Translations under genes and position numbers: made by a program
In this document: positions 4,512 through 53,424 of the stretch, piece by piece
Numbering within the stretch: the first letter of the stretch is position 1
How the letters are laid out: the number at the start of each line of letters is the position of its first letter
From: Anaeromyces robustus
Taxonomy: Eukaryota; Neocallimastigomycota; Neocallimastigomycetes; Neocallimastigales; Neocallimastigaceae
Assembly: GCA_002104895.1 (NCBI GenBank)
Contig: MCFG01000007.1
Span: 177,501-237,500, forward strand
Direction: 5' to 3'
DNA length: 60,000 bases
The notes under the pieces: generated by a model
Seen by the model: the letters and a program-made list of their open reading frames with translations, nothing else
Databases searched by the model: none
What the model was told of the DNA's origin: nothing

Positions 4512-7100
4512 TTTTTTTTTTTTAATTTTTATTCTTTTTTTTTTTTTTTTTCAAATATTATTTAAAATTATAATTTTTGTTGTTAATAATTTATTATTAT
4601 TTATTAAATATATATTATAATATTAATGAATTATAATTAAATATATATATATAATTACTTTTTATATAAATAGATTTCTATGATAGATTTAAAAAATTTT
4701 ATAAATCTAATTTGTGGTAATTTAAAAAAATATTTACAAACAAAAAAAAAATTTTATCTTTTTTTTTTTTCTTTTTTTTTCCTTTTTTTTTTCCTTTTTT
4801 TTTTTCCTTTTTTTTAATTTTTTATTATTTAATTTTTTTTTAATATTTTTTTAATATTTTTTTTTATGTTTTGTATTCCTTTGTAATAAATTAAATTTTT
4901 TATCCTCAAAAATTTTTATTTTTATTAATTAATAATTTTTTATATTTTTTTAATATAAAAAAAATTTAAAAATTAAAAAAATTTTTTTTTTCCGTTTAAT
5001 AATAAAGTTGATCAATGAAGATTATTTTTTTATATTAAATAAATAATAATAAAAATGATAAAAAAAAAAAAAAGAACAATAAAGAAAAAATAAAAAACAA
5101 TGGAAAAAATAAAAATTAAAAGAAAAACAGAAAAACAAAATAAAAATAAATAAAAATAAAAAAAAAAAAACAATTTAAAAGCCATTTATAATTAAAAAAA
5201 ATAAGAATTAATAATTTAATTAATTATTCATTCATTCATTCACTTATTTATTTATTTATTTAATTCATTATTATTATTTATTTAAATATTTAAAAGATAA
5301 AAATTAAAAAAGTTTAATTAATAATAAATTTATTATTAATTATTTATTTTAATTTTTTTTATTTTTTAATAATCATTTTTTTTATGGCACACAATTCGTA
5401 CGTCAACTATATTGAATTTAAATATTTCATTATTAAATAATACAACATAATAATTTATTATTATAAAATGAAATGAAATATAATTCATTTTCATTTATTA
5501 TTAAATAAAATATTATTTATCATACAGATAATTATTATTACAACGACTAAAACATGAATTCAAGTTATGTTATTATTTATTATTATTATTACTATTAATA
5601 TTAATACTATTTTATAACTTGAAAAGATAAATAAATAAATAAATAAATGAATATTTTATTATTACTAATTTATTATTAAATGTTAATATGAATAATTCTT
5701 TTTTTTTTTCAATATGAATGATTATGAAATTATAAATAATATAATATTACTTTTTTTTACATATAAAAGATAGTTTAATATAATATAGTATCTTAAAACC
5801 TTAGATAAAATGAGAGTTGTTAAATCATTAAAAAGATATACATATCTATAATACATTAATATAAATATATTTTTTAACTTATATATTATAATTTATTGGT
5901 TAACTTTTAAGAAATATAAACTATTATATATATATTATTTGTTTTTTCTTTTTTTTCATATAAGATATGATATATGATGTAGCTAACATTAAATAAAATT
6001 AAAATTAAATAATAATATATTTTATTTTATAATTTATATTTTTTATTTCATTATACCTTTTAATTTATCTATAATAATTTATTTTATTTTAAAATTTAGA
6101 TTATAATAATACTTAATAATCCGTTATATTATATATATATATAACAATTTAAATAAAATGAAAAATTCTTTTTCATGTTTTTTTTTTTTTAGGTGTTAAT
6201 TAATTGTTTTTCTTTTTTTAGTTTTTTTTATTTCTTTTTTTCTTTTTATATTTTTTTTTACTTAATTTTATTTTATTTTGAATTTTTTTTTTTTAATTTT
6301 TTAATTTTTTTATTTTTAATTACAAAATTTAAAAATTATTGGTTAAAATAATTTAAAAAAAAAGAAATAAAAAAAATTCAAAATAAAAAAAAAATAATAA
6401 ATTTTATTTTTAATTATTATTATTAAATAAATTTTTTTTTTAACTTTATTATAATTTTTTTTAAAAAAAAAAAAAAAACATTTCAATGGATTTGAATTTC
6501 AAATCTTGATTTTCTTTTTATAATTTATATTATTTATTTATTTATTAAAATTCATAGAATATTAAAAAAAATATATTAATAATATTAATAAAAATAATAA
6601 TCTTTCTAATTATATTCAACATTTTAAACAACCAAAAAAAATAAAAAAATTCAGTTTTTCAATTAATAATCCATTTATCATTATTAATATATTAATATAC
6701 AGTTTATTCATTAAAATTTATCATTAAAAAAAATAAAAAATAAATTTAGACTTATATATATTTATTTAATTATTTATTACACTTTTAAAACATTATTATT
6801 TAACTACATATATATAAAATATTAATTTAAAAAAAAATATTCATTAATATTACTGTAATTACTTATCCACCATATATATTATTACTTACATTTATTATTA
6901 ATAATTAGTTACATCAAAAATATTATTATATTTTTTATCATTTCAATTATTCTTAATAGATTTCATATTTAATTTAATGTTTAACTAGAATTCAAAAAAT
7001 TTAAATATCTATCATAATTTTTATAATATACATATTCAATTTTTTTTATCTTTTTTTGAAATAAATAATAATTAAGTAAAAAAAAAAAAAAAAAAGCAAT
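4512..7100. other. Divergent intergenic region, deaminase / TopBP1-like gene
   Basis: About 2.6 kb with no supported gene. It should carry both promoters since the flanking genes diverge. It holds long T and A runs (4750-4815, 5060-5180), (TTTA)n near 5244-5262 and a poly-A run just before the ATG at 7101. No tRNA-like fold or other RNA gene was recognised. Confidence 0.75.
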
Positions 7101-8148
7101 ATGAGTGAAGAAAAAAATATGAGTGAAGAAAAAAATATGAATGAAGAAAAAAATATGAGTGAAGAAAAAAATATAAATAACATTGATAATTTTGAAAATT
7201 CTGAAAGTTTAGGAATCAATACTTTAGATGAAGAAACTATTGAAAGTACTTGTTTAAATAATTTAGTTATTTGTTTTACAGGATTTGAAGCAGAAGAACT
7301 AGTAACTATATATATATAATTTTTATTTTTATTTTTTAATTTATTTTTTTTTTATTTTTATTTTTCAATTTTATTCTTTTGTCATATATGTTATTGTCTA
7401 ATTTTACATTTTTTTTTTTTTTAAAATTTATATATATTTTAATAAAATTATTATTTATATAAAATAATTGAATTGATATATATATATTTTTTTCTTTTCT
7501 AAAAAAAAAAAAAAAACTATTAACATTATATATTTTTATTATAAGTCTTTATATGAGGAACAAATCGTTTTAATGGGTGGAACATATAGTCCACATTTAA
7601 CCAATGATGTTACCCATTTAGTATCTAAAAATACTGTATCTGATAAATATAAAGTAATTTGAATAATTTATTATAATAAAATAGATATAAATATAAATTT
7701 TTAATTTTTTTATTAAAATTTTATATAATATGTAAAATTATTATTCAAAAAAAAAAAAAAAGTTTGCTGCAAAATTAGGAATACCAATTATTCAAGAAAA
7801 CTGGATAAATGAATGCTGGAATAGAAGATTAGAAAGGGGATTTAATGGAAAAAGGGTAAATTTTAAATATATACTATTTATTGTATATATAATAATATAT
7901 ATATAACAAATAGAAGTAATAATAATAATAAAAAAAAATAAAATAAAATTTCATTTTAAATTTATATAAAAATTTACAAATAATTAAATACTTTTTTTTT
8001 TTTTTCTTTTCTTTTCTTTTCACAAATTTCATAAAAATATGTTTTATTCAATTAAGATTGCTGAACAATATTTATTACCCCCATTTGTAGATGTTCAAAT
8101 ATGTGTTACAGGAATATCGGGAGGTATATAGTTTTATTTATGGATTTC

Positions 8149-8181
<33 letters not shown>

Positions 8182-9985
8182 CTTTATTATTATTTATTTT
8201 AAAAATATATATATTTTTAAAATTTGCTTAGCATAATAATTCAAACCGAAAATTTCAAGTTTTTTTTATATTAAAATACTTATTTTTTTTTTTTTTTTTT
8301 TCATTAATATTTTTATTGATATATATATTTATATATATTTATAATAAATATAATTTAAAATACAATAAATAAAATAAAATAGAAAATCGTGAAGTAATAG
8401 AAAATTTTACAAGATTATATGGAGGACAATATTCAGCAGATTTAACACATCAATGTACACATTTAATTGTTGAAATATCCTTTTTTTTTTTTATATATAT
8501 AAAAATTTATTAATAAAATTTATAATAATTATATATATATATATATAAAGATTTAAGAGAATATATTATAAAGAGAGTATATATATATAAATATAAATAA
8601 TTTATTTCTTTTTTTTTTTTGTAAGTCAAAACGAATATTATTATTCCTTAACCTTTATAATACAAACCTAATGGAAGAAAATATGAATATGCAAAAAAAT
8701 GGGGTTTATATTTAGTTAATCCCCGATGGTTCACTGATTGTATTTCTAAGAGAGGTAAATTTTATTATATATATATATAAAAATATAATTATAATTAAGT
8801 TATTTATACATATATATTTATATATTTATATATTAATAATTTTTCATTGATATATATTCTTTATTTTAATTTATTTCTTTTATAATATATTTTAATATAT
8901 TTTAATATTAATCTATATTTAAGTTCGTATTGATGAAAGTGATTATTTATTAGAAAACAATGGTAATTATTCAAATAAATATATAATAATAAATAATAAT
9001 AATAATAAATAAATAATTTTCTAATTGAATATGAATTATTTAATTATTATATATATATATAAAGATGAAGAAGAAAATAATACAGATGAAACTTATGATA
9101 TGAATGATTTTCCAGATGATGAAAATTTTGATTTTCTTATGTCCGAAGAAATAAAAAAAAATATGATTAATAATTCTTCCCTGGATAGTTATTTAGAAAG
9201 ATGTATTATCTATTTTGGAAGTGGTTTTTCTCCAGAAAAATTAAATTTATTGAAAAAATGTGTTTTACATGGTGGAGGTACTCGTTATTCCGATTTTAAT
9301 TCTAAAGTAACCCATTATATTGTTAAAAGTAAAAAAAGTATTAATAAAAGGTAATATAAATATAATTAGAAATATTGAATATTTTTTTTTCATTTATTTA
9401 TATGTATTATATATTATTATTATTATTATTTTATTTTTATTTTTATTATAATTTAATATAAATATAATTTTATAATTTTATATTTCAATTCTTATAGTTT
9501 TCTTACTTTTTTTTTTTTTTGTTTTATTATAAATAAATAATATATATAATTTTTTTATTAACTCAATTCAATTACTTTTATATAATATACATGAAAAAAA
9601 AATTTTTCTTTTCTCTCTCATTTTTATTAGTGATAAAGAAATTCTTAATTCAATACCAAATCAATGTGTAGTAGTAAGTTATAAATGGTTACAAAAATGT
9701 TTTATTGATAAAAAATTATGTTCAATAGATGAATTTAAAATTGATCAACCACAACAAGAAATGAATAGTCAAATTATATATCAAAATGACAATGATGAGG
9801 ATGATGATGATGATAATGATGAAAATGATATTCAAAATAAAGGAAAATTAAAAATACGAAATAATAGTTTATTATTAAATTTCGATGTAAATAATATGTA
9901 TGAAGATATTTATAATGAAAATTTTAATAATAATAATAATAATAATAATAATGATGGATTTATAGAAAGTCCACCTAAAAGGAAT

Positions 9986-10043
<58 letters not shown>

Positions 10044-11037
10044 GTCAATACAAAAATTCCAAAGTTAATCCAAATAAAGTTTTAACCATGGAACCTTCTT
10101 ATCCTGAATCACAAAATAATTCAATAAATGAAGAATTAAAATCAACAATTATTCAACCTATAAGTAAACTTTTTGAAGGATTAAATTTTGTTAGCAAAGG
10201 TTTCAGTCCAAATCATGTAAGTTATAAAAATAATAAATAATAATTATGATAATAATTATTATAATAAATAATAAATTATAAATAATAATAATAAATATTA
10301 TTAATTATTATAATAAATAGGAACAAATTATTGAAAAAGAAGTATTAAAGCATAGTGGACAATATTTTCATTCAGAAATATCAATAAAAAATAATTACTA
10401 TCAAATTTTACCTTTTATAAAGTAAGTAGTTATTAGAAAATACAATAATAATAAAAAAAAATTAATAATTATTAATAAAAATATAATATAATAATTATTA
10501 TTTAATTATAATCAATAAAATTAAATATAATTATTTTAATTATTTTAATTATTTTAATTAATTATATTATAAATTTCAATTTAATAATTATAACCTAATT
10601 AAAATATATACTTTTAATATTATATTATTTTAATATCGTATCAAAGTACTTTAAATATTATAGTGTCTCAAAAAGCAATTATTGTTACAGAACATTGGCT
10701 TGAACGTTGTTTAATTGTAAATTTATTTATTTATTTATATATATTTATTTATTTTTTTGTATATTTAAAAATATAAATATGTATATATATATATTTAATA
10801 ATTTGTTTGTTTATTTATTTTTATTTTTATATTTATTACTATTATTTTCTTTTTACGAATTATTTTCTTATATATATTTTATATCGATATAAATTAAAAA
10901 AAAAAAAAAAATTTTTTTTTCATCCATAGGATGATATATTACATAATCCAGATGAAAATCCAATTTATATACCATGTACCTTAGAAATGCCAATAGAAGG
11001 TTTGTTATTCATGATATTAAAATATTAATATAATATT

Positions 11038-11100
<63 letters not shown>

Positions 11101-12593
11101 CAATTATTATGGTTAACCCATTTTTTATCTAATTAAAATACATTAATATATTATATATAAATTATATATTATATTTTTTAATAGAATTTAACGGCATTGT
11201 AATTGGAAATACTGGATTTAATGGAATTGAAAAAGCACATATTGGAAAATTAGTTGTTAAACTAGGTAATTTTTTTAAAAATATAAAATTTTATTAACAT
11301 TATTATTTATATTCTATTCTTATAAAAATAAAAAATATATAAATATATATATTATAATATTAATTATTATTATTATTATTATTATTTTCTTTTTTAATAA
11401 TATCATATCATTTTATATTTTAAATCTTATTATCATTATTGTTATAATAATATATGTATATATATAAATATAGGTGCAATTTATACAGATACCCTAACAA
11501 GAAAGCATGATTTCTTAATATGTAAACCAGAAAGTATAAACAATTCGTTAAAATATAGAAAAGCATTAGAATGGAATATTCCCATACTAGAAGTGGATTG
11601 GATTTATGATTGTTTTAGACAAGTAATATATATATAAATAATGAAAAAAAAAAAGGAAAAAAAGAAAAATATTTAATTATTATTATATATTTAATATTAA
11701 TATACCTAATTTTTTATATAATTAGGAACGAAGACTTCCATATGAAAATTATTTAATAAATAATAAAACAAAGTCAAAAGATGAACGAGAAGTTCAAGAA
11801 ATACAAAATAATGGTATTTTATATATTTTTTTAAAAATAGATAATATATTTATATAATGTATATTTATATATTTATATTGTTTTATTGATTAATTTTTTT
11901 TTCTTTATTTATTTAATTATTATTATAATAATTATTATTGATTTTAAATTATTAATAAAAGATGTTTTTTCAAGTCTTTCAAATATATTAAGTAATAATA
12001 ATAATAATAATAATGAAATACATATGAGAGAAGAACCTGAAGAAATGCAAAGTATTATATTATTATTATATTATATTATATTATATTATATTATATTATA
12101 TATATTAAATAATAATGACTTTTTTTTTTTAATATTATTATTATTTCTAATTTTTATTATATTAATAATATTAAAATTATTTAAGTTGACCAAGAACCAT
12201 CAGAAAATAAAGAAAATAATAACGAAAATAAGGTAAAGAAAGAAGAATAATTATCAATTATAAGTTCTTTTACATAATATATAATATATATAATTATTTA
12301 TTTATTTATATCAAATTTATTTTATATATTTATATTGATTATATAATTTTTTTTTTTTTTCATTAATTTTTAAAAGGATAAAGAACCTGTGGAAATGGAG
12401 TCAAAACCTAAAAAAGAAGAAAATCCAGAATTATTAAAAGGCGTAGTTATTAGTATTAGTCAACGTTTATCTCATAAAAAAAATGAAATTTGGGAATTAG
12501 CATCTAAAATGGGTGCAGAATGTATTATTAAATTTAATGATACTTGTACTCATTATATACATTATATCCTTTTTATATATATATATATATATA

Positions 12594-12626
<33 letters not shown>

Positions 12627-13822
12627 GATTATAATTATAATTAATATTTTATTATTATAATTATATAATGATTACTACCTCAATCATTATGTATAAAATT
12701 TTCCTTAACTTTAAAAAATATTTATTTTTATTTTTCTATTTTTTTTTTTTTGGAAAAATTACCTGGTGTAAGAGCAAAAGAATCATTTAAAGATTTTAAA
12801 TTAGCATTATCGAAAAAGAAGTTTATTGTATCTCCTGTATGGCTTGAAAAGGTTTGTTTTTTATAAACCAAATTTATTTTATATTTTATTTTATTTTATT
12901 TTATTTAAATGGTATTAATATATTTATTTATGATATTTTTTTAAATTTTTTGTTTTTTTAATATCATTTTAAAAGTGTTATGAATTACAAAAACATGTCC
13001 CTGAAAATGATTATCCACATACTTATAATCCAAATAAACAATTGTTATTAAAAAGCAATGAAAATAATCAAAATGGAAATACTAATAATAATAATACTAA
13101 TAATAATACTAATAACGATAATAACAATAACAATAATAATAATAATTCAGCAATGAATGATAAAAATTCAAAAGGAAAAGATTTAACTAGAAGTCATAGT
13201 TCAGCTAATTTAAATTCATTTTATGAAAATTATGTCATAGCCAGCAAATCTAATGAAAATAATAATAATAGCAATGAAAATAATAATAATAATGAAAATA
13301 ATAGTAATGAAAATACTAATAATGATAATGATAATAATAAAATAGAATCACTGTCAAAAAATGATGACAAAATGAGTATAGATAATAGTGATGAAAATAA
13401 TAATGAAAAAGCTGAAGGCTATGTATCTGCTATGGATAATATAATTAAAATGACATCTGTAAGAATAACTATAACTATATACATATATCATATTTTAAAG
13501 TGTTACATTAGTTAATTAATATATACATATAAATGTATCAGTTAAATAATTTAATATATATATATATATATTAATTATTTTTATATTTATATTTAGATGA
13601 GAAGAAGACCAAGAAGTATAAGAAGAGATACCTCTAATGATAAAACAAAAATAGATAATGAAACAAGTAAAATAATTGAATAAAAGATATTTTGTTTTAT
13701 TATTATATATAAATATATATATATATTACTAATTAAAAAATAATAATTTTATTTAATAAAAAATAATATATCATTAAAATATTTGTGTATATTTAAATAT
13801 TTAAATATAAAAAAAATATTTA

Positions 13823-13869
<47 letters not shown>

Positions 13870-14167
13870 AACAAGCAATTTAGATTTAGAAACCTCTAAA
13901 AGAAAATTCGTAGAAGAAAATGATGAAGGATTAGTAAAAATTGATGATCCAGAAGCAAGAATGGAAAAATTGAAATTATTAGATAAAGTTAATCAAAATA
14001 AAAAAAGAATTAAAACTTTATCACCTGATGGTTCAAATATACAAACAACAGATACTAATAGTAGTAATAGTAATAGTAATAGTAATAGTAGTAGTAATAC
14101 CGATATAAATAATATTCCAGATAAAAATGAAAAAAATATTGAAATATGTAAAATTTTTTATTCTTTA

Positions 14168-14251
<84 letters not shown>

Positions 14252-15134
14252 CATTATCATCATTTTAATTTCAATTTATATTTAAAAAAAAAAATTGTTA
14301 TATTTACTATATTAATATATTAATTTATTTAAAATATTAAATATGTATATATATATTTATAATTATATCAAAAAGATAATAATAGTAATGAAAGCAATGA
14401 AAATAATGAAAATGATAGTCATACAACAATGGGAGATTCAATCGATAAACCAGAAATGATTAAAGATACCAAAGAAGAAGAAAAAGAAAATAAAAATGAA
14501 TTAAATAATGGTAAAATAATAATAATAATATTATTATAGTTATTATTATTTTTTATAATAAATAATTAAATCATTAAATAATAATAAATTAATAAACTAA
14601 TACATATTCTTATTCATATCTCTAATAAAATAATAATAATTTTTATTTTAATTATATATATAATATATATATATTTCATTTTTAATTTTAATGAAAATAT
14701 TAATAATACAATAAAGAAAAACCAATAGAAAATGAAAAGGAAAAAGAAGAAAAAGAAAATGATAAAATTAAAATCAAAAAAGAAGTTACTCCAAGAAAAA
14801 ATAAAAATAATAATAATAATAACACCAACGACAACAACAACAACAACAATAATAATAATAATCCTATAGTTTATGATGATTCATTTGTAATTAATAAAAC
14901 TAATCTACGTTCTAGACCAAATAGTAATATGTGTTTTATGTTTTCAATTATTAAAAATGATTTAAGATCTCTTTATGCAAAAAATATCCTTTTATTATTT
15001 TTAATAAATTTTTTTTTTAAAAAAAAATATATATATATATTTTAATATTTTAAATAATAAAATATGATATTATTAATAATATAATATAAAAAATAAATAA
15101 TTTTTTTTAATTAATCCTTAACTCGAGATAATTA

Positions 15135-15165
<31 letters not shown>

Positions 15166-16267
15166 ATATTATTTTTAATGATCTTACAAATTAGAGCTTT
15201 AGGTGGTAAAGTTAGTGAAAAAGATCATTGGGATGAATCTTGTACTCATTTAATTATTAAAGAACCTAATAGAGGTGAAAAATATTTAGCTGCCATTGCT
15301 TCTGGTATTTGGTAAAATATTTTTTAAATAATTATATACATAAAAAAAAAAAAAAAAAAAAAAAAATAGAGTATAATAATATAGTATATAAATATAAATA
15401 AATGTTATATATTATAAAATATATAATAAACATTATATAAATATTATATAATATATTCTATAAATTTAAATATAAAAATTTATTTTAATATTAATATTAA
15501 TATTAATATTTTATTTTATTTTATTTTTATTTAATTTGATTATTTTTTTTTTAGGGTTCTTAAACCAGAATATATGGAAGAAAGTATAAATCAAGGAAGA
15601 TTTGTAAATGAAGAAGATTATGAATGGGGAAGAAGCTCAAGTGATAGTAATTATTATATAATATAATATATTATATATTATATAATTTTTAAATAATAAT
15701 GTATTATAAATATTTTATATAAATTAGGTAATATTGCTAAAGCAGCACCACGATGGAGATTAAAACTTGAAAATTTCACTAGACCTATAGAAGAAAAATT
15801 TCAAGGTAGTTTTGAAGGATGGGATATTTTATTAATGGTAGATTCTAAAAAAAGAGAAGGATTTACTAGACTTCTTAAAGCAGGAAAAGGAAAAGTAACC
15901 ATATTAAAAAATTCATTACGTAATATTAAAAATAAGGTAAAAAAAAAAAACAAAACAAAACAAAACAAAACAATAATAATGATAATGATAATAATAATAA
16001 AAGTATAAAATAAAAATAAAAATAAAAAAAAAAATAAAAATATATTAAATTAAAATTGGTTATATATATATAATTAATAAAATGATATTTAATTTATCAA
16101 TAATTTTTTTTTATTTTCTTTTTATTTCTATTATTTAATTCAGTTTAATATAATATAATTTAATTTAATATTTTAATTATTAATATTACTAATTATACTC
16201 ATAAAATAAAATATTTATTTTATAATATTTAATATTATATAATTATACTTTTTAATTAATCAACAAA

Positions 16268-16302
<35 letters not shown>

Positions 16303-16474
16303 ATAGGAATATACTCATTTCTTTATTGATGGTACTACAAGAAATCGTTTAAAAGATTTATCTTCACTTTCCTATCTTATTGAAAGGAATATTCAATGTT
16401 ATGATGCTCAATATATTGCTGAATATTTAATCTCACCAAATCCACAATCAAGTCGATTTGAAATTAAAATATAA
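7101..16474 (+). CDS. TOPBP1: TopBP1/Dpb11/Rad4-like multi-BRCT checkpoint scaffold (28 exons, three AT-AC introns)
   Basis: Exons: 7101-7301, 7546-7653, 7763-7855, 8057-8123, 8383-8474, 8664-8754, 8924-8962, 9065-9350, 9631-10216, 10321-10421, 10647-10716, 10930-10999, 11185-11265, 11474-11622, 11726-11813, 11962-12051, 12186-12232, 12377-12563, 12763-12851, 12976-13458, 13597-13666, 13869-14147, 14376-14510, 14717-14983, 15188-15311, 15555-15646, 15728-15936, 16307-16474. These join in one frame to 1453 residues (human TopBP1 is about 1520). Eight BRCT repeats lie at roughly 55-128, 142-220, 271-360, 505-580, 602-695, 768-866, 1235-1322 and 1355-1440; each pairs a THLI/THYI-type strand with a late Trp (for example CTHLIVE and NPRWFTDC). 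KHVPENDYPHTYNP after BRCT6 and CTHLIIKEP...EDYEWG in BRCT7 are TopBP1-specific. The family scaffolds replication initiation and ATR checkpoint activation by binding phosphoproteins in the nucleus. No BRCT0 was seen. Linkers are Asn-rich, and the N-terminus carries four copies of a six-residue MSEEKN-type repeat. Introns 5, 18 and 24 are AT-AC. Confidence 0.9.
8475..8663 (+). other. AT-AC (U12-type) intron 5 of the TopBP1-like gene
   Basis: Starts ATATCCTT (8475) and ends AC (8663). TTCCTTAAC at 8644-8652 matches the U12 branch-site consensus and sits about 12 nt before the end, the classical minor-intron spacing. Removing it is phase 0 and joins CTHLIVE to KPNGRKYEYA, restoring an unbroken BRCT2; no GT-AG alternative does this. 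Confidence 0.9.
11042..11100 (+). repeat. Poly-T run of about 59 in intron 12
   Basis: An uninterrupted T run fills part of the 11000-11184 intron. It is the longest homopolymer in the window and is likely length-variable and assembly-sensitive. Confidence 0.9.
12564..12762 (+). other. AT-AC (U12-type) intron 18 of the TopBP1-like gene
   Basis: Starts ATATCCTT (12564); TTCCTTAACT at 12701-12710 is a full match to the U12 branch-site consensus; ends AC (12761-12762). Removal is phase 1 and joins CTHYIH to GVRAKESF in BRCT6. The branch site lies about 54 nt from the 3' end, longer than usual for minor introns; no AC or AG dinucleotide occurs between the branch site and the inferred end. Confidence 0.83.
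14164..14251 (+). repeat. (TAT)n microsatellite in intron 22
   Basis: About 29 TAT/ATT triplets inside the intron 14148-14375. Read through, it would encode poly-Tyr, so the frame crossing it is intron translation rather than protein. Confidence 0.85.
14984..15187 (+). other. AT-AC (U12-type) intron 24 of the TopBP1-like gene
   Basis: Starts ATATCCTTTT (14984); TCCTTAAC at 15115-15122 is the branch-site match; ends TTAC (15187). Removal is phase 1 and joins LYAK to KIRALGGKV at the start of BRCT7. The branch site is about 66 nt from the 3' end; a (TA)n tract between them could fold and shorten the real distance. Confidence 0.82.
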
Positions 16475-18917
16475 TATTTTTTTTTTTTTAAAAAAGAAAA
16501 AAGAAAAAAGAAAAAAAAAATTGAAATAAATAATTAAATTAATGTTTTTTATATAAACCAAAAAAAAAAAAAAAGAATAATAATAATTTTTCTTTCTTTC
16601 TTTTTCTTTTTTTCTAGTATTTATAATTAAAATAATTATAAATCAATTTAATAAAATTACAATAAAATTACAATAAAATAAAATAAAATAAAATAAAATG
16701 AAATATTGTTTTTAAAAAAAAAAAAAGTAATATTATATAATAATAATAATAATTGATAATTGATAATAATAATAAGAAATCTTTTAATTAAAATTTAAAC
16801 TTTTATGTTTTAAAATTTAAAATTCCAAATTTGATTTTATTAATTAAATTTAATAATAATTAAAATTATTGAAATTCATTGAAATTTAGTTTGAAATTAT
16901 TAGTTACATTATTAGTTACATTTCTTATTTACATTAATGTAATTATAATTACAGATTACAGGATGTATGTTAATCAATATGATGTAACCAAAATTTAATC
17001 ATTGTAACCATAATGATTACTAATTAAAAAAAATAGTAATTAAATAATTAAATAAATAAAATCAATGAATAAATAAATAATTAACTAAATAAATAACTAA
17101 ATAAATCAATGAATGAATAGATAAATAAAAAATTTCATGATTTTTTTTTTATTTATTTATAAATAAATTAAACTTGATTTATTTATATATTATTTTAATA
17201 ATAAATCATTTTATAAATAAATAGTTATTATTATTATATTAGTAATTAAAATTATTTATTTATTTATTTTATTTATTTACATTTATTTACTTATTCAAGA
17301 TTTATTTATTTATTTATTTATTTATTTATTAATTTTATTTATATTTATTTATTTAATTCATTATTCATTAACATTTATTTATTTATTTATATTTATTTAT
17401 TTATATATTTATTTATTTATTTATTATATTTATTTATTTATTTATTAATTATTAAATTAAAAAATGAATAATAAATTTTATTTTATTAAAAGAACAATAT
17501 AATTAGTAATTATATTACAATATATAATAGCAATATATTAATTTATATTATTATATATATCTATAAATAATTAATAATTAATAATAAGTAAATTATTAAA
17601 TTATTAATTATTTAAAATTATTAAAATTTTATAAAAAATGAAAATCAAATAAAATAAAGGAAAAAATTATTATTAATTATCATAATTTATTTAATTTTTA
17701 TTTATTCATTCATTTATTTATAATGAAATATCCTTAAACTTATTTATTTATTCATTTATTAAATTATAATTAAATTAAAAAATTTATTTAATTTTATATT
17801 TATATATTAATTTATTTTTAATAGTTAAAAAAAATTTTTTTCTGTTTTTTTTCGTATATTTGAGTGGCATTAAATCCGCATTTTATTGATAATATATTAC
17901 AATATATTGTAATATATAGTTATTAATTATATTTTTAAAATGTAAATAGTTTAATTTTTAATAGATTTTTTTTTAATTGATTTTTTTTTATTTTTTTTTT
18001 TAAAATTTCTTTATTATTATTATTAATAATATAATATATTAAAGTATATTATAATATATTATATTAAAAATTTTAAATTAACGAATGGATGAATTATATT
18101 CTAATATATGGTAAATTATCTATTACCATATATTATTATATATTTAAATCAATTTTTTTTTTTTTTTTTTTAAAAAAAAGTTTTCATATAAAAAGATTTA
18201 AAAATGTAGTTTAAAAAAAAAAATTTTTTTTTTATTTTGGTATTTTTTTTATTTTTAATTATTTTAATTATTTACATTTTTTACTAATTTTATTATAAAT
18301 GTTTTTTTTACTTGTAATGTTTTATAAAAAAATAAATTTTTAAATTTTTTAAAAAAAAAAAATAATAATAATAAATAATAAAACAATTTTAATTTTAAAG
18401 TGATAAAATTTACAATAAAATAGTGCTATAAAACATAAAAATCACAGAACCATATTATAAAGAAAAAAAATTTTTTTATAAGAAAATTAAAAAAATAAAT
18501 AATATAATAATAATTTATAATTAAATTTAAATAATAGTGTCATTATTAAAGAATAATTTTAATAAAAATTTCAAAAAAAAAATAATATAAATATCATAGA
18601 TATAAATATAAAAATAAACTTTATTTAGAAAATATTTTTTATCGATATAATTTATGTTATATTTTTTTCTTAACAAATTAAATTATAATAAAAAAATTCA
18701 AATAGAAAAAGTATACTTGAAAAGAAAAATTCCTTTAATATTTAAAATAATATAATAATATAAAAAGAAAAAATATTTAATTATCAGTTCTTCAAGTGTT
18801 TATTTATTTAAACAAAATAACTTATTACCTAAATTATTTCTTAAAATAATTATAAAATATAAAATATAAAATATAATAAAATAAAATAAAATAAAATAAA
18901 ATAAAAAATAATTAAAA
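16475..18917. other. Intergenic region between TopBP1-like and GCL genes
   Basis: No gene seen in about 2.4 kb. It holds (TTTA)n/(AAAT)n tracts, densest at 17040-17460, and poly-A/T runs. Both neighbours read rightwards, so its right end should hold the GCL promoter; an AAAATA-type repeat (18880-18905) abuts the start codon. Confidence 0.75.
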
Positions 18918-32279: not shown

Positions 32280-33931
32280 TTATTTAGAACAATAGGATTG
32301 AATACCACACCATTCTCCATTTTCATAACCCCATGAACCATCATTATCAACTTCATAAATAGTACATCCTTTACAACATGAATAACCAAAAATTTCAGAC
32401 CAACAAGTTTCAGCTTTATCATTATCAACATATGGAGTAAGACCACACCATTCTCCTTTTTTAAAATCATAACCCCAATCACCATTTTCATCATGTGCAT
32501 ATACTTTAGTATTATTTGGTGAACAACATTTATAACCAATTAATTCAGCAATACAATTAATTATGGATAATGAAGTTTCTGATTTAGATGTAGTAGTAGT
32601 TGTAGTTGTAGTTATAGGAATAGTAACAGTTGATGTTGGAGTATTAGTAATAGAAATAGTATTTGAATCCATTGGATTACCTGAATTATCTGAACTACCT
32701 GGAGCATCTGGACCACCTGGACCTCCTGGACCTCCTGGACCGCCTGGACCGCCTGGACCGCCACCAACATAAATATCATCACCTGGTAATTCAACTTCTT
32801 TATCTATAGTATATTTATAATTTTCATCCATGTAAATAGGATCACAAGTCATATTATAAGTTTTACAAACATATCTATATTTTTGAAGAATCCAATATTT
32901 TAAACCATATGCTTTAGAACTATGAATACTTCTAATATTAGTAAATTCACAATTAGCATCCCATTCAGCTAAAGAAAGGTCATCTGAAGCTTCATTAAGT
33001 TTACCTGGATATTTACCATTTTCATTTGGAGTTTTATCTAATTCTACATAAGGTCTTATATATTCTTTTAATTCATCAATATGTGGGAAAAGAGTAGCAG
33101 GATTAAAAACTTTAGTAATATAATTTTTAAGTATATTATCAAAACGAGTAGAATTATTGAAAATTAAAACATCAAGAAGTGGACGTTGTACACTTCTTAC
33201 AGTTTGTTCTACAGAATAAGCATAATATTCTGAACTAGTAATATTTTGTTCTTTTCTAACTCTATTATAACCCATAGCAACTTCTTGACCAAATTCACTA
33301 TCAAAATCATATAATATAATTTTCCATTTATCATTCTTTGGTTTATATAAATAAAAATTATGTCCAAAATTAGTGAAATGATCATAAGATCCAACTAAAT
33401 ATTCAAAAGCTATTTCTGTTAAGAAAAGATCAACATCTAAAATATCATCAATATCTTCCATAGAATTAGCCTTATCTAAAGCAGTTAAAAATTTAATCCA
33501 TTCTGAATTATCAGTAACATCTTCATTTTTATTTTCACAACCAGTACTAGAAGCTTCAAGAGTTAAATTTTGTTTAGTATTTTTACATTGATATAAAGTA
33601 GTAGTATCTTTATCTCCATATTCAAATTCTATCCATGATAAATTAATGGCATCCATTAAAACATAAACACCCATATATTCCTCATTGATATAAAGGAGAG
33701 CATAATTAGCAGAGATAGAAGGTACACCTAAACGATTATGAATATCACAAACTAATTTTGATCTAAGAAATGAAGCATCACGAACATCTGGACGAAGTCT
33801 AAGTTGTGTACGACCATATAAATTTTCACCACCACGAATTTTAACATTATAACCTTGTTTACCAAATTCACGAGAAGAAGTACCTCCAATAGATAAAGTA
33901 ACTTTATTAAATGATTTATCAGTACTGTTGA

Positions 33932-33966
<35 letters not shown>

Positions 33967-44200: not shown

Positions 44201-46909
44201 TCATTCTTCTCTTTCCAATAAAGTAACAATACCATTAATTGCATCTACTTCAATTTCTTCACCATCTTTAATTATTTCTGTAACGTTATCTATTCCAACA
44301 ACACAAGGTTTATTAAATTCTCTACTTACTAATGCTCCATGTTGAAGCATTCCTCCAACTTCTAAGATAATTCCTCCACAATTAATAATTAATGGTGTCC
44401 AACCTGGATCAGTAGCCTTGGTAACTAAAATTTCACCTGGAATAAATTTTTTTTCATTTAATGATTTTAAAACTTTGGCTTTTCCTCTTACTTTACCATA
44501 ACTAACAGAATCCCCAATTAATTGATTTTTTTTTGAAGATCCTTTTCTTTCATGAGAAAAAATTCTTCCTCTAGAATCAAAGATAACTGGTTGTCTTTTC
44601 CAAGTGGTAATAATTTCTCTATACTTATTATCTTCTTGGATTTTTGCATAAATATCTTCTTTAGTATAGGCATCTACATTTTGTAAAATATTACTTAAAG
44701 TTTTCATTCTTAATTTAAAAATATCATTTATATCATCAATTAATTCTTTTTTTAATAAAATTTCAGCTCTCTTTAATATTAATTCTCTCATAATTCCTAT
44801 AATGAAAACAATATAATATTTATGGGATTCTCTATATTGGAAAAAGTTTACTGTTAAGAAATAAGCCTTTTCTAACTTAGTACTGAAACCTTTTTCTTTA
44901 GCAAATTTACGGAGTTTTTTATAAATTTCTGGTCTTTTTTCATTTGTCTTATCAAAATCAAGTTGAGGATTATTATTTTCATCGTATTTTAAAACTGAAG
45001 AATATATTTGATCAAGGATGGTTCTTGGATCTTCATGATATCTTTTATTAAAAATATCTAATTCTCTTTCTCCTCTGAAACCATACTTTTTCATAAATGT
45101 TTCATATTCAATATAAAATTTTTCTGGGAATTTTTTATCTAAAAAATCTTGATAAAATTCATCTTGACTTTTATTCATATATTTCTCTTTATCTAAATAT
45201 GTAGATAATTTATATAAATCCAATCCCATTAAAACTGTGACAAATGGGAAGCATTTGATTAAATTATTAAAATCTTCTCTTAATTCAGAATTATCTTTAA
45301 TATATTCCTTAAATAAATTATTAAGCTTAAAATATCCAATCATTCCGTTAGCTAATACTGGAATAAGATAATTTCTAAAATGTACAATTAAGTCATTAAT
45401 AAGATATTCAAATGTTATTGATATTGGTACCTTTCTTTCCAAATCTTTTTGAACATTTTTTTTAGTTAATGTAATAAATTGGTTCATATGAAATTCAAGA
45501 TTTTCTTTTGATGATTTAGCAAAAAATTTTGGAAAAATAATTCTTTTAATTGGAATTCTTAAAATCAAACCAAATATATTTATGCTTAATGCTTCACACA
45601 CTTTTTCATTTTTATATTCTTTACCATAATTCGTTAATGTTTCTTTAAGTAAACTATTTATATTAGATGCATAATTTATAATTGTTTCAACTTTAACTTT
45701 GGTCATTACATTGGAAAAATTTACTAATAATTTTCCTCCAATACCATCAAATACACATTCCTTTAAATTATCAATATTTTCAATACCTGGTATAAGCTCT
45801 GCAGCAGTATGAATAATTAATTTTATCACATCTGCACCTAATGTAGTCATGGGTTCTTCAAATCCTTGAACACCTACAGTTACATCAAAATAAAGTTGTC
45901 TTTTTTCGTTTGGTTTAGTTAAAAATTCTTCTGGTATTTTATTATAGGTAGTAATAGGTCTTGCTTGAAGTATATATAAAATACTATTTTCTATACCAAA
46001 TTCAATATCAATAGGAGTATCATAATTATTTTCAATATCTATAATTTTTTCAACAATTTCAATTATTTGTTCTTTTGATAATGAAGATTCCTTTTGTTTA
46101 TCACAATTTTGTTTAAGAACCGAGGTACCATTATTTTTATTCAATTTTACAATTTTATCTTTACTTCCTAATTTTTCACTAATAATTGTTTTAGATATTT
46201 TATTTATTATATATTCATCAGGGGTGATAATACCACCAACAACACTTTCTCCTAATCCAAAATTCGAAGTAATTACGACTTCATCATAATCATTATTTAA
46301 TGGATTTATCGAAAATCCTACACCAGAAACATCACAATTAATTTGTTTCATGATAACTATAGCAATTTTTATGTCAGAAGCATCAAAACCTTTTTCCAAT
46401 TTATATTTAAATACTCTATAATCAATACAAGATATAAATGACTTTAAAATAAATTCTTCAAGTAATTCAAATCGAGTTCCTAAATATGTTTCGTAGTTTC
46501 CAGCAAAGGATGCTCCTGATAAATCTTCTTCTGGGGATGATGAACGTACGGCATATAATATTTTATTAAAATCATCTGGAAATAATTTTTTAAGATAATT
46601 TTCGATATTTTGCTTATCAGTTGAACTCAAAGTCAAATTATTTAAGCACCAATCCTTAATATTATTTAATATCTCTTGGCAATCATTATTATTTTTACTT
46701 AACTGAAAAATAAATTCATTATATAAAGATGAATTTTTAATTTTTTTTATCCAATCTTCAAAAAAGTCCACAGTAAGTATAATTCCTGAAGGAACATTTA
46801 AATTTAATGAATTTAATTTCAGTAAAGAATACCCTTTACCCCCAACTTGAGAAATATCAGCTAATGTATTGGAATTAAGAGAAATAATTTTTGTTTCTTT
46901 TTCATTCAT
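44201..46909 (-). CDS. PEP-utilising dikinase of RPH / PEP-synthase type
   Basis: Single exon, 902 residues. The N-terminal ATP-grasp (PPDK_N) domain at about 15-320 shows GGKGYSLLKL, YAVRSSSPEEDLSGASFAGN, GVGFSINPL, NFGLGESVVGG and QARPITT. A long helical middle region (about 340-800) is not a standard pyruvate-binding barrel. The C-terminal phospho-histidine swivel domain has ATDPGWTPL and GGMLQHGALVSRE, with His857 as likely phosphocarrier. This order (ATP-grasp, variable middle, His domain) is that of rifamycin phosphotransferases and related PEP-synthase-like enzymes, whose middle domain binds the acceptor; the acceptor here is unknown. The start has MNEKE directly before the domain. It lies head-to-head with an exporter gene and both lack introns, unlike their neighbours, which suggests bacterial origin. 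Confidence 0.88.
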   Translation of the reverse strand: MNEKETKIISLNSNTLADISQVGGKGYSLLKLNSLNLNVPSGIILTVDFFEDWIKKIKNSSLYNEFIFQLSKNNNDCQEILNNIKDWCLNNLTLSSTDKQNIENYLKKLFPDDFNKILYAVRSSSPEEDLSGASFAGNYETYLGTRFELLEEFILKSFISCIDYRVFKYKLEKGFDASDIKIAIVIMKQINCDVSGVGFSINPLNNDYDEVVITSNFGLGESVVGGIITPDEYIINKISKTIISEKLGSKDKIVKLNKNNGTSVLKQNCDKQKESSLSKEQIIEIVEKIIDIENNYDTPIDIEFGIENSILYILQARPITTYNKIPEEFLTKPNEKRQLYFDVTVGVQGFEEPMTTLGADVIKLIIHTAAELIPGIENIDNLKECVFDGIGGKLLVNFSNVMTKVKVETIINYASNINSLLKETLTNYGKEYKNEKVCEALSINIFGLILRIPIKRIIFPKFFAKSSKENLEFHMNQFITLTKKNVQKDLERKVPISITFEYLINDLIVHFRNYLIPVLANGMIGYFKLNNLFKEYIKDNSELREDFNNLIKCFPFVTVLMGLDLYKLSTYLDKEKYMNKSQDEFYQDFLDKKFPEKFYIEYETFMKKYGFRGERELDIFNKRYHEDPRTILDQIYSSVLKYDENNNPQLDFDKTNEKRPEIYKKLRKFAKEKGFSTKLEKAYFLTVNFFQYRESHKYYIVFIIGIMRELILKRAEILLKKELIDDINDIFKLRMKTLSNILQNVDAYTKEDIYAKIQEDNKYREIITTWKRQPVIFDSRGRIFSHERKGSSKKNQLIGDSVSYGKVRGKAKVLKSLNEKKFIPGEILVTKATDPGWTPLIINCGGIILEVGGMLQHGALVSREFNKPCVVGIDNVTEIIKDGEEIEVDAINGIVTLLEREE

Positions 46910-47614
46910 TTTTTTCTTTTTAAAAAAAAATAAATATTGTAAGAAATTATTTTACTTAATTGCTTTTTTTTATTTTTTATTTTATTGTTTTGTTTTATTA
47001 ATTACTTTTTTTTTTATTAAATAAAAATTTTTTATTCTAATGTTCTATTTTAATAGTTACTTTTTTTTTTATTATTAAATAGAAATCTTTTTTATTTTAT
47101 TGTTTTATTTTAATAATTATTTTTTTTTATTATTAATTAAAATATTTTTTATTTGGTTGTTTTGTTTTGAAATTTTCAAAAAAATTTACTACATATTTAT
47201 ACAAAATTTTTTTTTTTGTATTAATACAATCTAATATATATTATTATTATTATTCCTTCTATTTTTCCGTCTTTTTTTAATATAATCTTCATACTATTTT
47301 TCCTACTATTTTTCCTACTATTTTTCTAAAATTTTAAAACTTTATTTATTATAATTTTTTGAAATTTTAAATTAAAATTGAAAATTAATTACTGCCTAAT
47401 ATAATAAAAAAAATTATTGGTCAATCCTAATTTACTTTTATTAATAAAAAAGAATAAACATTTATAAATAATACATACATATCAATATTTTAAATATTAT
47501 GGAAAAATAAATTAATTTTTAATGAAATTTTAAAAAAAAAGTTGTAAAATTCAAACTTAACAAAAAAATTTTTTTTTTTAAAATATAAAAATTTTTTATA
47601 AATTACATATTAAA
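46910..47614. other. Divergent promoter region of the intronless gene pair
   Basis: 705 bp between two start codons on opposite strands, so it must hold both promoters. It has repeated blocks of a T run followed by ATTATTAAATA / TTTATTGTTTTATTTTAATAAT (46960-47165; about three imperfect copies). No operator could be identified. Confidence 0.7.
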
Positions 47615-49165
47615 ATGACTAATAATATCATCTATGAAGGAGAAAAAATTTCTGATAAAAGGCGTACACTAATACTAATTAATTTTATTATTAGTTGTAT
47701 TGCATCATCTATGCTTACTACAGCATTAACTACTGCTTTACCACCTATTATGAATGATTTTAAAATAGATTTTAATACTGGACAATGGCTGACAAGTGGA
47801 TTTTCATTATTTATTGCAATTATTACTCCATTATCTGCTTATTTAATTTCTAGTGTAAAAACAAAAAAGTTGTATTATTTAGCTCTATCTTTTTTTATCA
47901 TCGGTTTAACTATATGTGCTTTGTCACCAAATTTTTGGATAATGATGATAGGAAGAATTATTCAAGGTTGTGGTAATGGTTTAATAACTGCTATGAGTCA
48001 AGTTATTATTTTAACTATTTATCCACCAGAAAAAAGAGGTACAGTAATGGGTTGGTATGGGTTATCTGTTGGGTTTTCACCAATTATTGCACCAACATTG
48101 GCCGGAATTTTAGTAGATTATATTAGTTGGAGAATGATATTTGTAGTTTCTATTGTTATCATGGGGTTCTCTTTAATATCCGCTTTATTCATTTTTAAAA
48201 ACGTTTTACCCATAATAAAAAAATCTTTTGATATTGCCTCATTATTTCTGAGTGCTTTGGCTTTCGGTGGGATTACTTTTGCAATCAGTAATATGGGAAA
48301 ATACAAATTTGTAAGTCATCAAGTATTAACGGTACTAGTTATAGGTATTATCTCAACAGTATTATTTGTAATGAGACAACTTCATTTAAAAACTCCTTTC
48401 TTAGATATTCGAGTTTTAAAAGATCCAATGCTTTCTATTAGTATTATATCCATTGTCTTAATACAGCTATTTTTGTTAGGTTCCACTATTATCTTTCCAA
48501 TATATGTTCAACAGCTCAAAGGAAAATCAGCTACCATTTCTGGTCTAGTTATTTTACCAGGTTCATTGCTCTTAGCATTGATTAGTCCGATAGCTGGTAA
48601 AATATATGACAAATATGGAATAAAATTTTTATTTCTTATAAGTTCTGTAATAATAATTGCAAGTAATTTGAGTTTATTCTTTATCACTATTAATAAAAGT
48701 GTTTGGATTGTGGCTATTATTCAATCTTTTAGATGTCTTGCTCTTGGTTTGATTTTTACACCTTTGATAACCTGGGGTATGACTAATATACCAAAAACGA
48801 AAACTTCAGATGCTACAGCACTTTTAAATTCAATACGTAATTTAGGTGGTGCTATTGGCTCAGCTTTATTTGTTTCTATTATGACTGGTGTAGCAAATAC
48901 TATAGGAAAGACAAAGGAAAACCCGGAAATGTTTGGTTTTAATTTTGTTTTTCTAATAATGGCTATTCTTTCTGTTATTCTCTTATTTTTTGGTATATAT
49001 GAGTGTATAAAAAAACAACCAAAAAAAGAAAACAATGATAGTAATAATAACAATATTTATGACAATAATAATATTGATAATAATCTAATAAATGAAAATA
49101 ATAGAAAAGCTTTGAAAAGTAAAAGTACACAAATAGATATAATCGAATTAAAAAATGAAATTTAA
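47615..49165 (+). CDS. MFS multidrug exporter, DHA2 (EmrB/QacA-like, 14 helices)
   Basis: Single exon, 516 residues, with about 14 hydrophobic segments from residue 16 to 465 and a hydrophilic Asn-rich tail. MLTTALTTALPPIMNDFKID followed by GQWLTSGFSLF is the DHA2 first helix and loop; WYGLSVGFSPIIAPTLAGIL plus SWRMIFVV is the drug-antiporter motif C region. Expected to export drugs or toxic compounds against protons at the plasma membrane. The core reads like a Firmicutes permease while the C-terminal Asn-rich tail looks native, suggesting a transferred gene that has since been domesticated. It is divergent from the PEP-utilising enzyme, 705 bp away. Substrate cannot be inferred. Confidence 0.9.
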   Translation: MTNNIIYEGEKISDKRRTLILINFIISCIASSMLTTALTTALPPIMNDFKIDFNTGQWLTSGFSLFIAIITPLSAYLISSVKTKKLYYLALSFFIIGLTICALSPNFWIMMIGRIIQGCGNGLITAMSQVIILTIYPPEKRGTVMGWYGLSVGFSPIIAPTLAGILVDYISWRMIFVVSIVIMGFSLISALFIFKNVLPIIKKSFDIASLFLSALAFGGITFAISNMGKYKFVSHQVLTVLVIGIISTVLFVMRQLHLKTPFLDIRVLKDPMLSISIISIVLIQLFLLGSTIIFPIYVQQLKGKSATISGLVILPGSLLLALISPIAGKIYDKYGIKFLFLISSVIIIASNLSLFFITINKSVWIVAIIQSFRCLALGLIFTPLITWGMTNIPKTKTSDATALLNSIRNLGGAIGSALFVSIMTGVANTIGKTKENPEMFGFNFVFLIMAILSVILLFFGIYECIKKQPKKENNDSNNNNIYDNNNIDNNLINENNRKALKSKSTQIDIIELKNEI

Positions 49166-50707: not shown

Positions 50708-53424
50708 CTATTTAGATTTACAGTAGGATTGAATACCACACCATTCTTCTTTATCAAAATCATAACCCCATTTTCCAAGATCATCGGTTTCATATACATA
50801 GCAATTTTTACAACATTTATATCCATATTCTTCGGACCAACATTCTTCATCATCAGTATATTCTGTGTATGGGGTTATACCACACCATTCTCCTTTTTCA
50901 AAATCGTAACCCCAATCTCCTTCTTCATCAGTATCATAAACTAATTTACTATTTTCTTCATTACAACATGGATATCCGTATTGTTCAACCCAACATTTGT
51001 ATTTTTGAGAAGTAGTATCTTTATCTTTTGGAGGGGTATTTGGAGCATCACCTTGACCACCTGGACCACCTGGGAAACCACCTTGACCACCTTGACCTCC
51101 TGGTGGACCAAAGGTTTCTTCTTCACCAGAAATATCTAATTCTTCATCAATAGAGTATTCATAATTTTCATCTAAATATTTTTCATCACATTCCATATCA
51201 TAAGTTTTACAAATATATCTATATTTAGAAAGAATCCAATGTTTTAAACCATAAGCTTTACTATTTTGAGCACTTCTAATCATTGTATATTCACAATTAG
51301 CATCCCATTGAGCTAAAGAATAATCATTAGCACTTTCATTAAGTTTACCTGGATATTTACCATTTTCATCTGGTGTTTTATCTAATTCAACATATGGTCT
51401 AATAAATTCTTTTAATTCATCAATATGAGGGAAAAGTGTAGCAGGGTTAAAAACATCTGTAACAAATTTTTTAACAATATTATCAAAACGTGTAGAATTA
51501 TTTAAAATTAAAATATCAATAAGATGACGTTGTTTAGTCCATTCCTCAAATGAATATGATGGATAATCAGTATTCTTTTTAGTACTTTGTTGTTGACCAA
51601 ATCCAAAACCACCAGCACCCATAGAAACATCTTGACCAATTTCTCCATCAAAATCATATAATAAAAATTTCCATTTATCATCTTTTGGTTTATACATATA
51701 GAAGTTATGACCAAAGTTAAGATAGTGATCCCAAGAACCAGCTAAATATTCATAAGCAATTTCAGTTAAAAATTGATCTACATCGAAAATATCTTCAATA
51801 TCTTCAGCAGATTGAGCAGCATCTAAAGCAGTTAATAATTCAACCCATTCAGAATTATCAGTAACATCTTCATTTTCATTAACACAACCAGTAGAAGAAG
51901 TTTTAACAGTTAAATTATTATTCATATTTTTACATTGATAGAGTGTAGTAGAATCTTTATCACCATATTCAAATTCAACCCATGATAATTTAATAGAATC
52001 TAATAAAATATAGAAACCCATATATTCATCATTAACATAAAGTTGAGCATAATTAGCAGAAATAGAAGGAAGACCTAAACGATTATGCATATCACAAACT
52101 AATTTTGATCTTAAGAAAGTAGCTTCACGAGCATCAGGACGAAGTCTAAATTGAGTACGTCCATATAAATCTTTTTTACCTCTAACCTTTAAATTATAAC
52201 CTTGTTTACCAAAACTACGAGAAGAACTACCACCTAAAGAAAGAGTTACCTTGTCAAATGATTTTTCATCTCTATTTAAAAATAATAATATATAATATTA
52301 TATTTTATAAGAATGATATTTTTTGTTATTTATATTATTATAATTTTTTTCTTTTATTTATTTATCTATCTAATAATTATTAATTCTTTTATATATATTA
52401 TTGTTTTTATTATTTCTTAATCTATAATAAAAATAAATTTTTCATTTTTTTTATAAAAAAAATCTATAATAAAAATTAAATAATCATTTAATAATCATTA
52501 TTACATACCCATTAAGTTCAACAACCATGGTAGCATTTTTAGTTTTAAATGAATCTTCATCAAATGGACTACCTCCAAAACCACCTAGGAAACCACCTTC
52601 TGTATCATTAAAATTTGGCATACCTTTACCATCACCACCTGGGAAACCACCTGGAAATCCTCCTTCAGTCATATTAAAGTCTGGCATACCTTGTAAACCA
52701 CCTGGAAATCCTCCTTCAGTCATATTAAAGTTTGGCATACCTGGAAATCCTCCTTCAGTTATATTAAAGTTTGGCATACCACCTTTACCACCTTTATCAC
52801 CTTTACCACCTTTACCACCTCCAAAACCATGAGAATTAGCATCTTCTTTTAATTGTTTAAATTCTTCAGGTGGTAAATTAATACGAAATATAGCAACTTC
52901 TTTATCTGTTAATTCAAAAAGTTCTGCACGTTTTTTGGCGTTACCAATAAAATTGCTTGCAGCTGAAACATAGCAAACTAAATAAATAAATTATAATAAA
53001 AATAAATATTATATTAATAAATAAATAAAAACATATATTTATATGTTATTAATTAAAGTTAATTAATATAATTTAAGATGATGATTATTGTAAAGAAATG
53101 TTTGTTTTTTTTTTTTGTTTTTTTTTTGAAACATATTATTATGATTTATGTATTATTATTCATAAATTTTATTATATATTTAATATATATTAATTTATTA
53201 TGTGTTTATTATTTAATTTTTTTAAACAAAATTATTAATATATTTGTGACTTTTTTTTTTTTTTTTTTTTTTTTTTGTAATTATTATTTATTGTATATAT
53301 TTTTTTATCTTTTATTATTATAATTTTTATATATGAATAAATATATCTAATTTATTATTATTTTTATATATAAAAAGATATATTATTTACCAAATAATAA
53401 TAATGCAATTATTTTTTTTAACAT
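50708..53424 (-). CDS. CotH-family protein with two fungal dockerins, paralog 2
   Basis: Three exons: 53424-53391, 52977-52509 and 52271-50708; 688 residues. Exon 1 encodes the signal peptide core (MLKKIIALLLF), joined phase 1 to VCYVSAASNF. The CotH domain shows RAELFELTDKEVAIFRI, SLGGSSSRSFGKQGYN, GFYILLDSIKLSWVEFEYGD and LLYDFDGEIGQ. It differs from paralog 1 by a Gly-rich insert of about 75 residues in the N-terminal part (about 65-140), made of GGK(G/D) runs and four MPxFNxTEGGFPG-type repeats, each offering an NxT/S glycosylation site. A short collagen-like Gly-Gln-Gly linker precedes two dockerins (about 600-643 and 645-686; GDWGYDFEKGEWCG and GKWGYDFDKEEWCG). Likely a secreted cellulosome component. 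Exon order, phases and dockerin pair match paralog 1, so the two arose by duplication, now separated by about 16 kb. Confidence 0.93.

Follow-up and report, generated by a model that had tools for sequence, protein, structure and literature searches.

Three AT-AC introns of probable U12 type in a TopBP1-like gene of Anaeromyces robustus, and a divergent U6atac in the same genome

The persistence of minor (U12-type) introns in scattered lineages is debated. Minor introns and minor small nuclear RNAs (snRNAs) have been reported in two anaerobic gut fungi, Piromyces finnis and Neocallimastix californiae (Larue and Roy 2023, PMC10639083, excerpt), in a survey that used the classifier intronIC with default settings. 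From the branch site to the acceptor, U12-type introns span a significantly shorter distance than U2-type introns, with an optimum of 11-13 nucleotides (PMC3584512, excerpt). Here we describe three AT-AC introns in a TopBP1/Dpb11-like gene of Anaeromyces robustus (phylum Neocallimastigomycota), which belongs to the same fungal class as those two species. The gene lies in a window of 60,000 nucleotides (contig MCFG01000007.1, positions 177,501 to 237,500 of the forward strand), the whole stretch of DNA analysed. Judging from their motifs, their fit to related proteins and the minor spliceosome genes found in the genome, the three are very probably true U12-type introns removed by a retained minor spliceosome.

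The gene model was assembled by hand after reading positions 5500-17000 of the window and was then translated, giving 1453 codons to the stop without an internal stop codon. Pfam searches of the protein matched BRCT over six stretches (2.7e-82) and BRCT_TopB1_SLF1 (3e-9), with PTCB-BRCT and RTT107_BRCT_5 also matched. A homologue search returned 16 hits, including the deposited BRCT protein of A. robustus (P0001), a protein of a relative (P0002) and bird TOPBP1 proteins. Twenty-four of the 27 introns were GT-AG and three (introns 5, 18 and 24) were AT-AC (Table 1). An initial annotation of the window, made from the sequence alone, had placed three AT-AC introns at these same junctions among ordinary neighbours, and its coordinates, motifs, AC ends and GT-AG neighbours (24 of 24) were all reproduced, as was the restoration of the reading frame upon each removal. 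The AT-AC introns had a G+C content of 7-10%, and each began with ATATCCTT, a form of RTATCCTT, and carried the branch motif TCCTTRAY as TCCTTAAC. Neither TATCC at +2 to +6 nor the branch motif was observed in any of the 24 GT-AG introns of the gene, and the combination of ATATCC with TCCTTAAC was confined to exactly the three AT-AC introns. The presence of both defining motifs in all three supports the U12-type identity that the annotation had proposed.

Table 1. Positions of the features discussed (window positions unless a contig is given; coordinates inclusive).
Feature	Position	Strand	Details
TopBP1/Dpb11-like gene	7101-16474	+	28 exons, 27 introns, 1453 amino acids, several BRCT domains
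AT-AC intron 5	8475-8663	+	junction 8474/8664, phase 0, 189 nucleotides
5' splice site ATATCCTT, intron 5	8475-8482	+	U12-type
Branch site TCCTTAAC, intron 5	8645-8652	+	
AT-AC intron 18	12564-12762	+	junction 12563/12763, phase 1, 199 nucleotides
5' splice site ATATCCTT, intron 18	12564-12571	+	U12-type
Branch site TCCTTAAC, intron 18	12702-12709	+	
AT-AC intron 24	14984-15187	+	junction 14983/15188, phase 1, 204 nucleotides
5' splice site ATATCCTT, intron 24	14984-14991	+	U12-type
Branch site TCCTTAAC, intron 24	15115-15122	+	
U6atac gene	G000:C1:239650-239797	-	predicted RNA start GUGUUGUAUGAGCCGAGAGA
U6atac 5' fragment	G000:C766:128917-128959	+	43 nucleotides, 95% identical, same GCC and GGC, no CCAATCA box
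snRNA loci with CCAATCA box (both U6, U6atac, U12)	G000:C579:12074; G000:C514:5048; G000:C1:239797 (minus); G000:C81:92871		
Phosphoenolpyruvate-synthase-like frame	44201-46951	-	intronless, 916 amino acids; resembles bacterial phosphoenolpyruvate synthase / rifamycin phosphotransferase, below curated cut-offs
DHA2/EmrB-type MFS transporter	47582-49165	+	intronless, 527 amino acids; over TIGR00711 cut-off; adjoins the preceding frame

The pairing of the two motifs, rather than either one, departed from chance. RTATCCTT was not significant by itself (11 in the window against 7.85 expected), and TTCCTTAAC was weak by itself (2 against 0.56 expected, with 2 reached in 9 of 100 shuffles). The ordered pair of RTATCCTT followed by TCCTTAAC within 40-300 nucleotides was observed three times against a block-shuffle mean of 0.02, and none of 300 shuffles reached three; with letter-permuted motif pairs as a control, three was reached in 1 of 300. 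A looser pair (RTATCC[TA]T with TCCTTRAY, 30-400 nucleotides apart) gave one extra match in the window, at 24656, which we attribute to chance because the branch word there lies antisense to a frame of coding appearance on the minus strand. The loosest form (RTATCC[TA] with YCCTTRAY) gave four further pairs in the genome loci examined, none of them with ATATCCTT. No pair, loose or strict, was found in 200 kilobases of contig C1 (7,500 N), a result that is uninformative because a few hundred minor introns genome-wide would predict about one or fewer there.

The junctions were also evaluated independently of the motifs. Around each site we collected every AT-AC, GT-AG or GC-AG intron that kept the frame open (23, 92 and 76 choices for introns 5, 18 and 24), with donors from 150 nucleotides upstream to 120 downstream and acceptors from 120 upstream to 100 downstream, and each was scored as a whole protein against P0002 with BLOSUM62. 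The AT-AC intron of our model scored highest at all three sites, while the top GT-AG alternative was lower by 158, 83 and 90 units for introns 5, 18 and 24, and the runner-up AT-AC intron (the same AC with a later AT) by 16, 15 and 18 units. The relative's protein P0002 has 1446 amino acids and is encoded on a contig of 4483 nucleotides; as its codons nearly fill that contig it would derive from spliced RNA or from an intronless copy, and we read it, from contig size alone, as the relative's spliced transcript or cDNA. Its residues matched across all three AT-AC junctions. The deposited P0001 contained 26 of the 27 junction peptides of our model, those of AT-AC introns 5 and 18 among them, and 1367 of 1369 aligned residues were identical, both misfits lying beside gaps (84 gap columns). 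Apart from intron 24, where its reading differs, P0001 starts later than the model, is shorter in an Asn-rich stretch and departs from it at one residue next to that stretch.

Components of the minor spliceosome were sought across the genome assembly (769 contigs), the snRNA genes by Rfam covariance models. U6atac was found at full length (model positions 1-126) with 61.5 bits against a cut-off of 33, and U12 with 57.4 bits against a cut-off of 53, its branch-site partner GUAAGGA unchanged. Protein-family searches detected three of the five minor-specific proteins sought, namely SNRNP25, CENATAC and TXNL4B. The closest solved relative of the SNRNP25 protein is named U11/U12 25 kDa protein (E 7.6e-9), and its five homologues included proteins of A. 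robustus, N. californiae, P. finnis and Piromyces sp. E2; 172 residues were 100% identical to the deposited A. robustus entry, and three weaker family matches were observed on two other contigs. CENATAC/CCDC84 was matched at 1.1e-16, and DIM1-family matches occurred at two loci; TXNL4B is one of the two (184.7 bits versus 95.3 for Dim1). Both CENATAC and TXNL4B have been tied to the minor spliceosome through co-occurrence and biochemistry, and the selectivity of CENATAC with A-type introns has been discussed (De Wolf et al. 2021, PMC8280824, excerpt).

Two features of this system differed from what is usual. The first was the spacing between branch site and acceptor. Counted from the branch base, the second A of TCCTTAAC, to the final base of the intron, it was 12 nucleotides in intron 5, 54 in intron 18 and 66 in intron 24, so that the annotated position of the branch motif near the 3' end held for intron 5 and failed for the other two, where the motif spans -60 to -53 and -72 to -65, respectively. 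In all three introns the stretch between the branch motif and the terminal AC contains no other AC, a pattern consistent with scanning from the branch for the first AC, but since G+C is so low in these introns, gaps of such size are not rare by chance. Intron 24 holds one AG (15126), 5 nucleotides past the branch base, which is bypassed in the model. Nearer to the acceptor of intron 24, about 9 nucleotides away as counted by eye, ATTTTTAAT is a less favoured candidate for the branch site; it pairs weakly with U12 (-2.1 versus -6.5 kcal/mol). A short branch-to-acceptor distance is usual in U12-type introns and does not define them. One survey searched for branch sites from -40 to -5 (PMC2846911, excerpt), and intronIC scores the region from -55 to -5 (PMC7367187, excerpt). 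All of the intron 24 branch motif and most of the intron 18 motif fall outside -55 to -5, so minor introns of this kind may be undercounted.

The second was U6atac itself. Positions 10-30 read GAGCCGAGAGACAGUUGGCAC where the Rfam consensus (RF00619) has GAAAGGAGAGAAGGUUAGCAC, with 6 of 21 positions different: AAG to GCC at 12-14, AG to CA at 21-22 and A to G at 26. The 5' end, GAGAGA, the U4atac-pairing region and the terminal T run were all kept. The changes replace the AAGGA element (12-16), the partner of UCCUU in the 5' splice site, by GCCGA. Mammalian suppressor experiments matched GG14/15 of U6atac to the 5' splice-site bases CC5/6 (PMC4980772, excerpt), and position 14, a member of that pair, is C in Anaeromyces. 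In the register of those tests the consensus U6atac has an ordinary pair at each of the six positions +4 to +9, while the Anaeromyces U6atac is paired at +4, +5 and +9, unpaired at +6 and +7 and in wobble at +8; a hypothetical AUAUCGGCUU site would pair with it at -10.8 kcal/mol. Positions 26-28 are GGC, with U12 GCC opposite, where the consensus has AGC, the catalytic triad. GCCGA and UUGGC within the same RNA form a predicted hairpin of -6.0 kcal/mol, and the consensus forms none over this stretch. Two major U6 genes were also found, with ACAGAGA and AGC both ordinary, which makes the change specific to U6atac.

The partner of U6atac was examined as well. In stem II the genome's U6atac and the U4atac candidate pair at -27.7 kcal/mol with a run of 14 pairs, and pairing is weaker when either partner is swapped for its Rfam consensus (-20.1 and -25.6 kcal/mol); two consensus partners reach -30.8 kcal/mol. 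Over longer segments the consensus U4atac pairs slightly better with the Anaeromyces U6atac (-39.8 kcal/mol) than its own does (-37.1 kcal/mol). The covariation is thus not clean, the own pair exceeding the mixed pairs in stem II only. A DNA search of the genome found one full U6atac copy and one fragment of 43 nucleotides, which shares both GCC and GGC, making a base-calling error unlikely. There were nine weaker covariance matches to U6atac; among the seven re-searched (L002-L008), L002 alone reached E 0.01 and was a 5' fragment. A 20-letter pattern from the U6atac 5' end occurred in one viral and seven prokaryote records, none with an snRNA over the Rfam cut-off, and we regard these as chance occurrences.

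From these components we infer how the three introns would be spliced. A U11/U12 particle, whose 25K protein is encoded, would recognise ATATCCTT and TCCTTAAC jointly, with U12 pairing to the branch site through its unchanged GUAAGGA. The encoded CENATAC and TXNL4B would assist the U4atac/U6atac particle on A-type introns, and after the first step the first AC past the branch site would be taken, 12, 54 or 66 nucleotides on. With U6atac reduced to adjacent pairs at +4 and +5 and an isolated one at +9, the 5' site probably leans on U11 and proteins, more than it does in animals. Taken further, this suggests a minor spliceosome with a rewired U6atac, in which AAGGA has become GCCGA, AGC has become GGC, a new GCCGA/UUGGC hairpin may form and the choice of 5' site passes to U11 and proteins; together with gaps of 54-66 nucleotides, this would amount to a loosened, transformed machinery. 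We put this forward tentatively, as a possibility that falls somewhat short of an even chance. Were it true, some introns of the rewired system would have branch sites beyond the region that standard classifiers score.

The U6atac found could instead be a non-functional copy, with an ordinary U6atac beyond the assembly serving plain U12-type introns through standard machinery. The two elements altered, the one facing the 5' splice site and the AGC triad, are both conserved in the Rfam consensus, the 43-nucleotide fragment shows that U6atac copies do arise, the assembly in its 769 contigs may be incomplete, and the longer U4atac segments favour the consensus partner slightly. Set against this, the gene is full length, with U4atac pairing and a T-run end kept, and neither the covariance model (46 of 1013 candidates scored) nor the DNA search recovered a second full copy. 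The upstream sequence bears on the question from both sides. A CCAATCA box, possibly an snRNA promoter element, was observed at four of the five full-length snRNA loci, standing at -88 before U6atac much as it does before the U6 genes (-90 and -89) and at -104 before U12, against a background of 15 occurrences on both strands of 200 kilobases. The fragment lacks the box, but so, on its own strand, does U4atac, which has an inverted one at -140. On balance we consider a dead copy unlikely, though it deserves to be kept in view.

Several observations weigh against removal of the three introns by a minor spliceosome. No covariance match to U11 snRNA was found, with 39 of 6831 first-look candidates scored, and the U4atac candidate, the only match, reached 40.4 bits (E 4.8e-4), below the Rfam cut-off of 53. 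No first-look candidate for zf-U11-48K (25 positions) was present in the genome, and the PDCD7 family had no genome match; control searches for the latter were equally without a match, so that its absence is not established. Two of the three branch sites (54 and 66 nucleotides) lie far outside the 11-13 nucleotide optimum, the duplex of U6atac with AUAUCCUUUU is predicted at -2.5 kcal/mol compared with -6.8 for the Rfam consensus U6atac, and the deposited P0001 does not have AT-AC intron 24, where P0002 agrees with it. The initial annotation had taken the introns to imply a working system of U11, U12, U4atac and U6atac; this was supported, at the level of genes, by U12 and U6atac, and further by SNRNP25, CENATAC and TXNL4B, while U4atac stayed below its cut-off and U11 had no match.

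Some of these points would suit removal of the introns by the major spliceosome as U2-type AT-AC introns, with the U12-like motifs as relics. AT-AC termini alone are no proof of U12 type, and of the two types U2-type introns have the longer branch-to-acceptor distances (PMC3584512, excerpt); those of introns 18 and 24 are long. Pairing of the altered U6atac with the 5' splice site is also poor. Both U12 motifs, however, are letter-perfect in three introns, U12 retains its branch-site partner and the minor-specific genes have been retained; where A/T is so abundant, motifs that were mere relics would probably have decayed. We therefore hold U2-type removal to be very improbable. Least credible is an error in our gene model, with ordinary GT-AG introns in truth and accidental AT-AC ends, as in the deposited P0001, whose RPNT-LGG at intron 24 is reproduced by an open, in-frame GT-AG intron (14924-15196): that reading loses 24 residues (model 1237-1260) inside the Pfam BRCT match at 1229-1320 which P0002 keeps, GT-AG introns score lower by 83 units or more at each of the three sites, and P0001 itself is AT-AC at the other two. 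The deposited model is probably wrong at intron 24, an annotation error caused by the AT-AC intron.

The window contained further features away from the TopBP1-like gene. The 916-residue phosphoenolpyruvate-synthase-like frame is a candidate for horizontal transfer because it is intronless beside intron-rich genes, and the adjoining 527-residue MFS transporter is likewise a candidate. Two CotH proteins with CBM_10 repeats were also observed (32280-33932 and 50708-52297, both on the minus strand); such proteins are typical of anaerobic gut fungi.

In the gut fungi, with their extreme A+T content, U12 motifs stand out and the limits of the machinery become readable from sequence. Should the U6atac found be the one that functions in Anaeromyces, nature would have rebuilt a contact that suppressor tests showed to be important for the use of minor 5' splice sites, and existing minigene assays could test the consequences. 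Literature searches for Anaeromyces with the minor spliceosome, and for anaerobic gut fungi with U12, found nothing, and TOPBP1 was absent among the matches listed for TOPBP1 with minor introns. The excerpt of the 2023 survey (PMC10639083) names neither Anaeromyces nor the TopBP1-like gene, branch distances or the U6atac changes. It does report minor introns and minor snRNAs from Neocallimastigomycetes, and the exceptional standing that the annotation gave to three such introns in one gene was not established. The long branch gaps and the U6atac change were not met in the literature examined, parts of which were excerpts, and we make no claim that they are unpublished.

Compared with known systems, the protein resembles the TopBP1/Dpb11/Rad4 scaffolds in its BRCT array and its PTCB-BRCT, RTT107_BRCT_5 and BRCT_TopB1_SLF1 matches, and it is otherwise ordinary apart from long linkers rich in Asn and Glu. 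The introns share with the U12-type AT-AC subtype the RTATCCTT and TCCTTRAY motifs, the AT-AC ends and GT-AG neighbours, and they add members to a known kind of intron that has already been published for sister gut fungi. They differ from that subtype in a branch A that lies 54 and 66 nucleotides from the end in two of three cases, where 11-13 is the usual optimum (PMC3584512, excerpt). Of the two departures from known systems, the change in U6atac is more surprising than the branch spacing.

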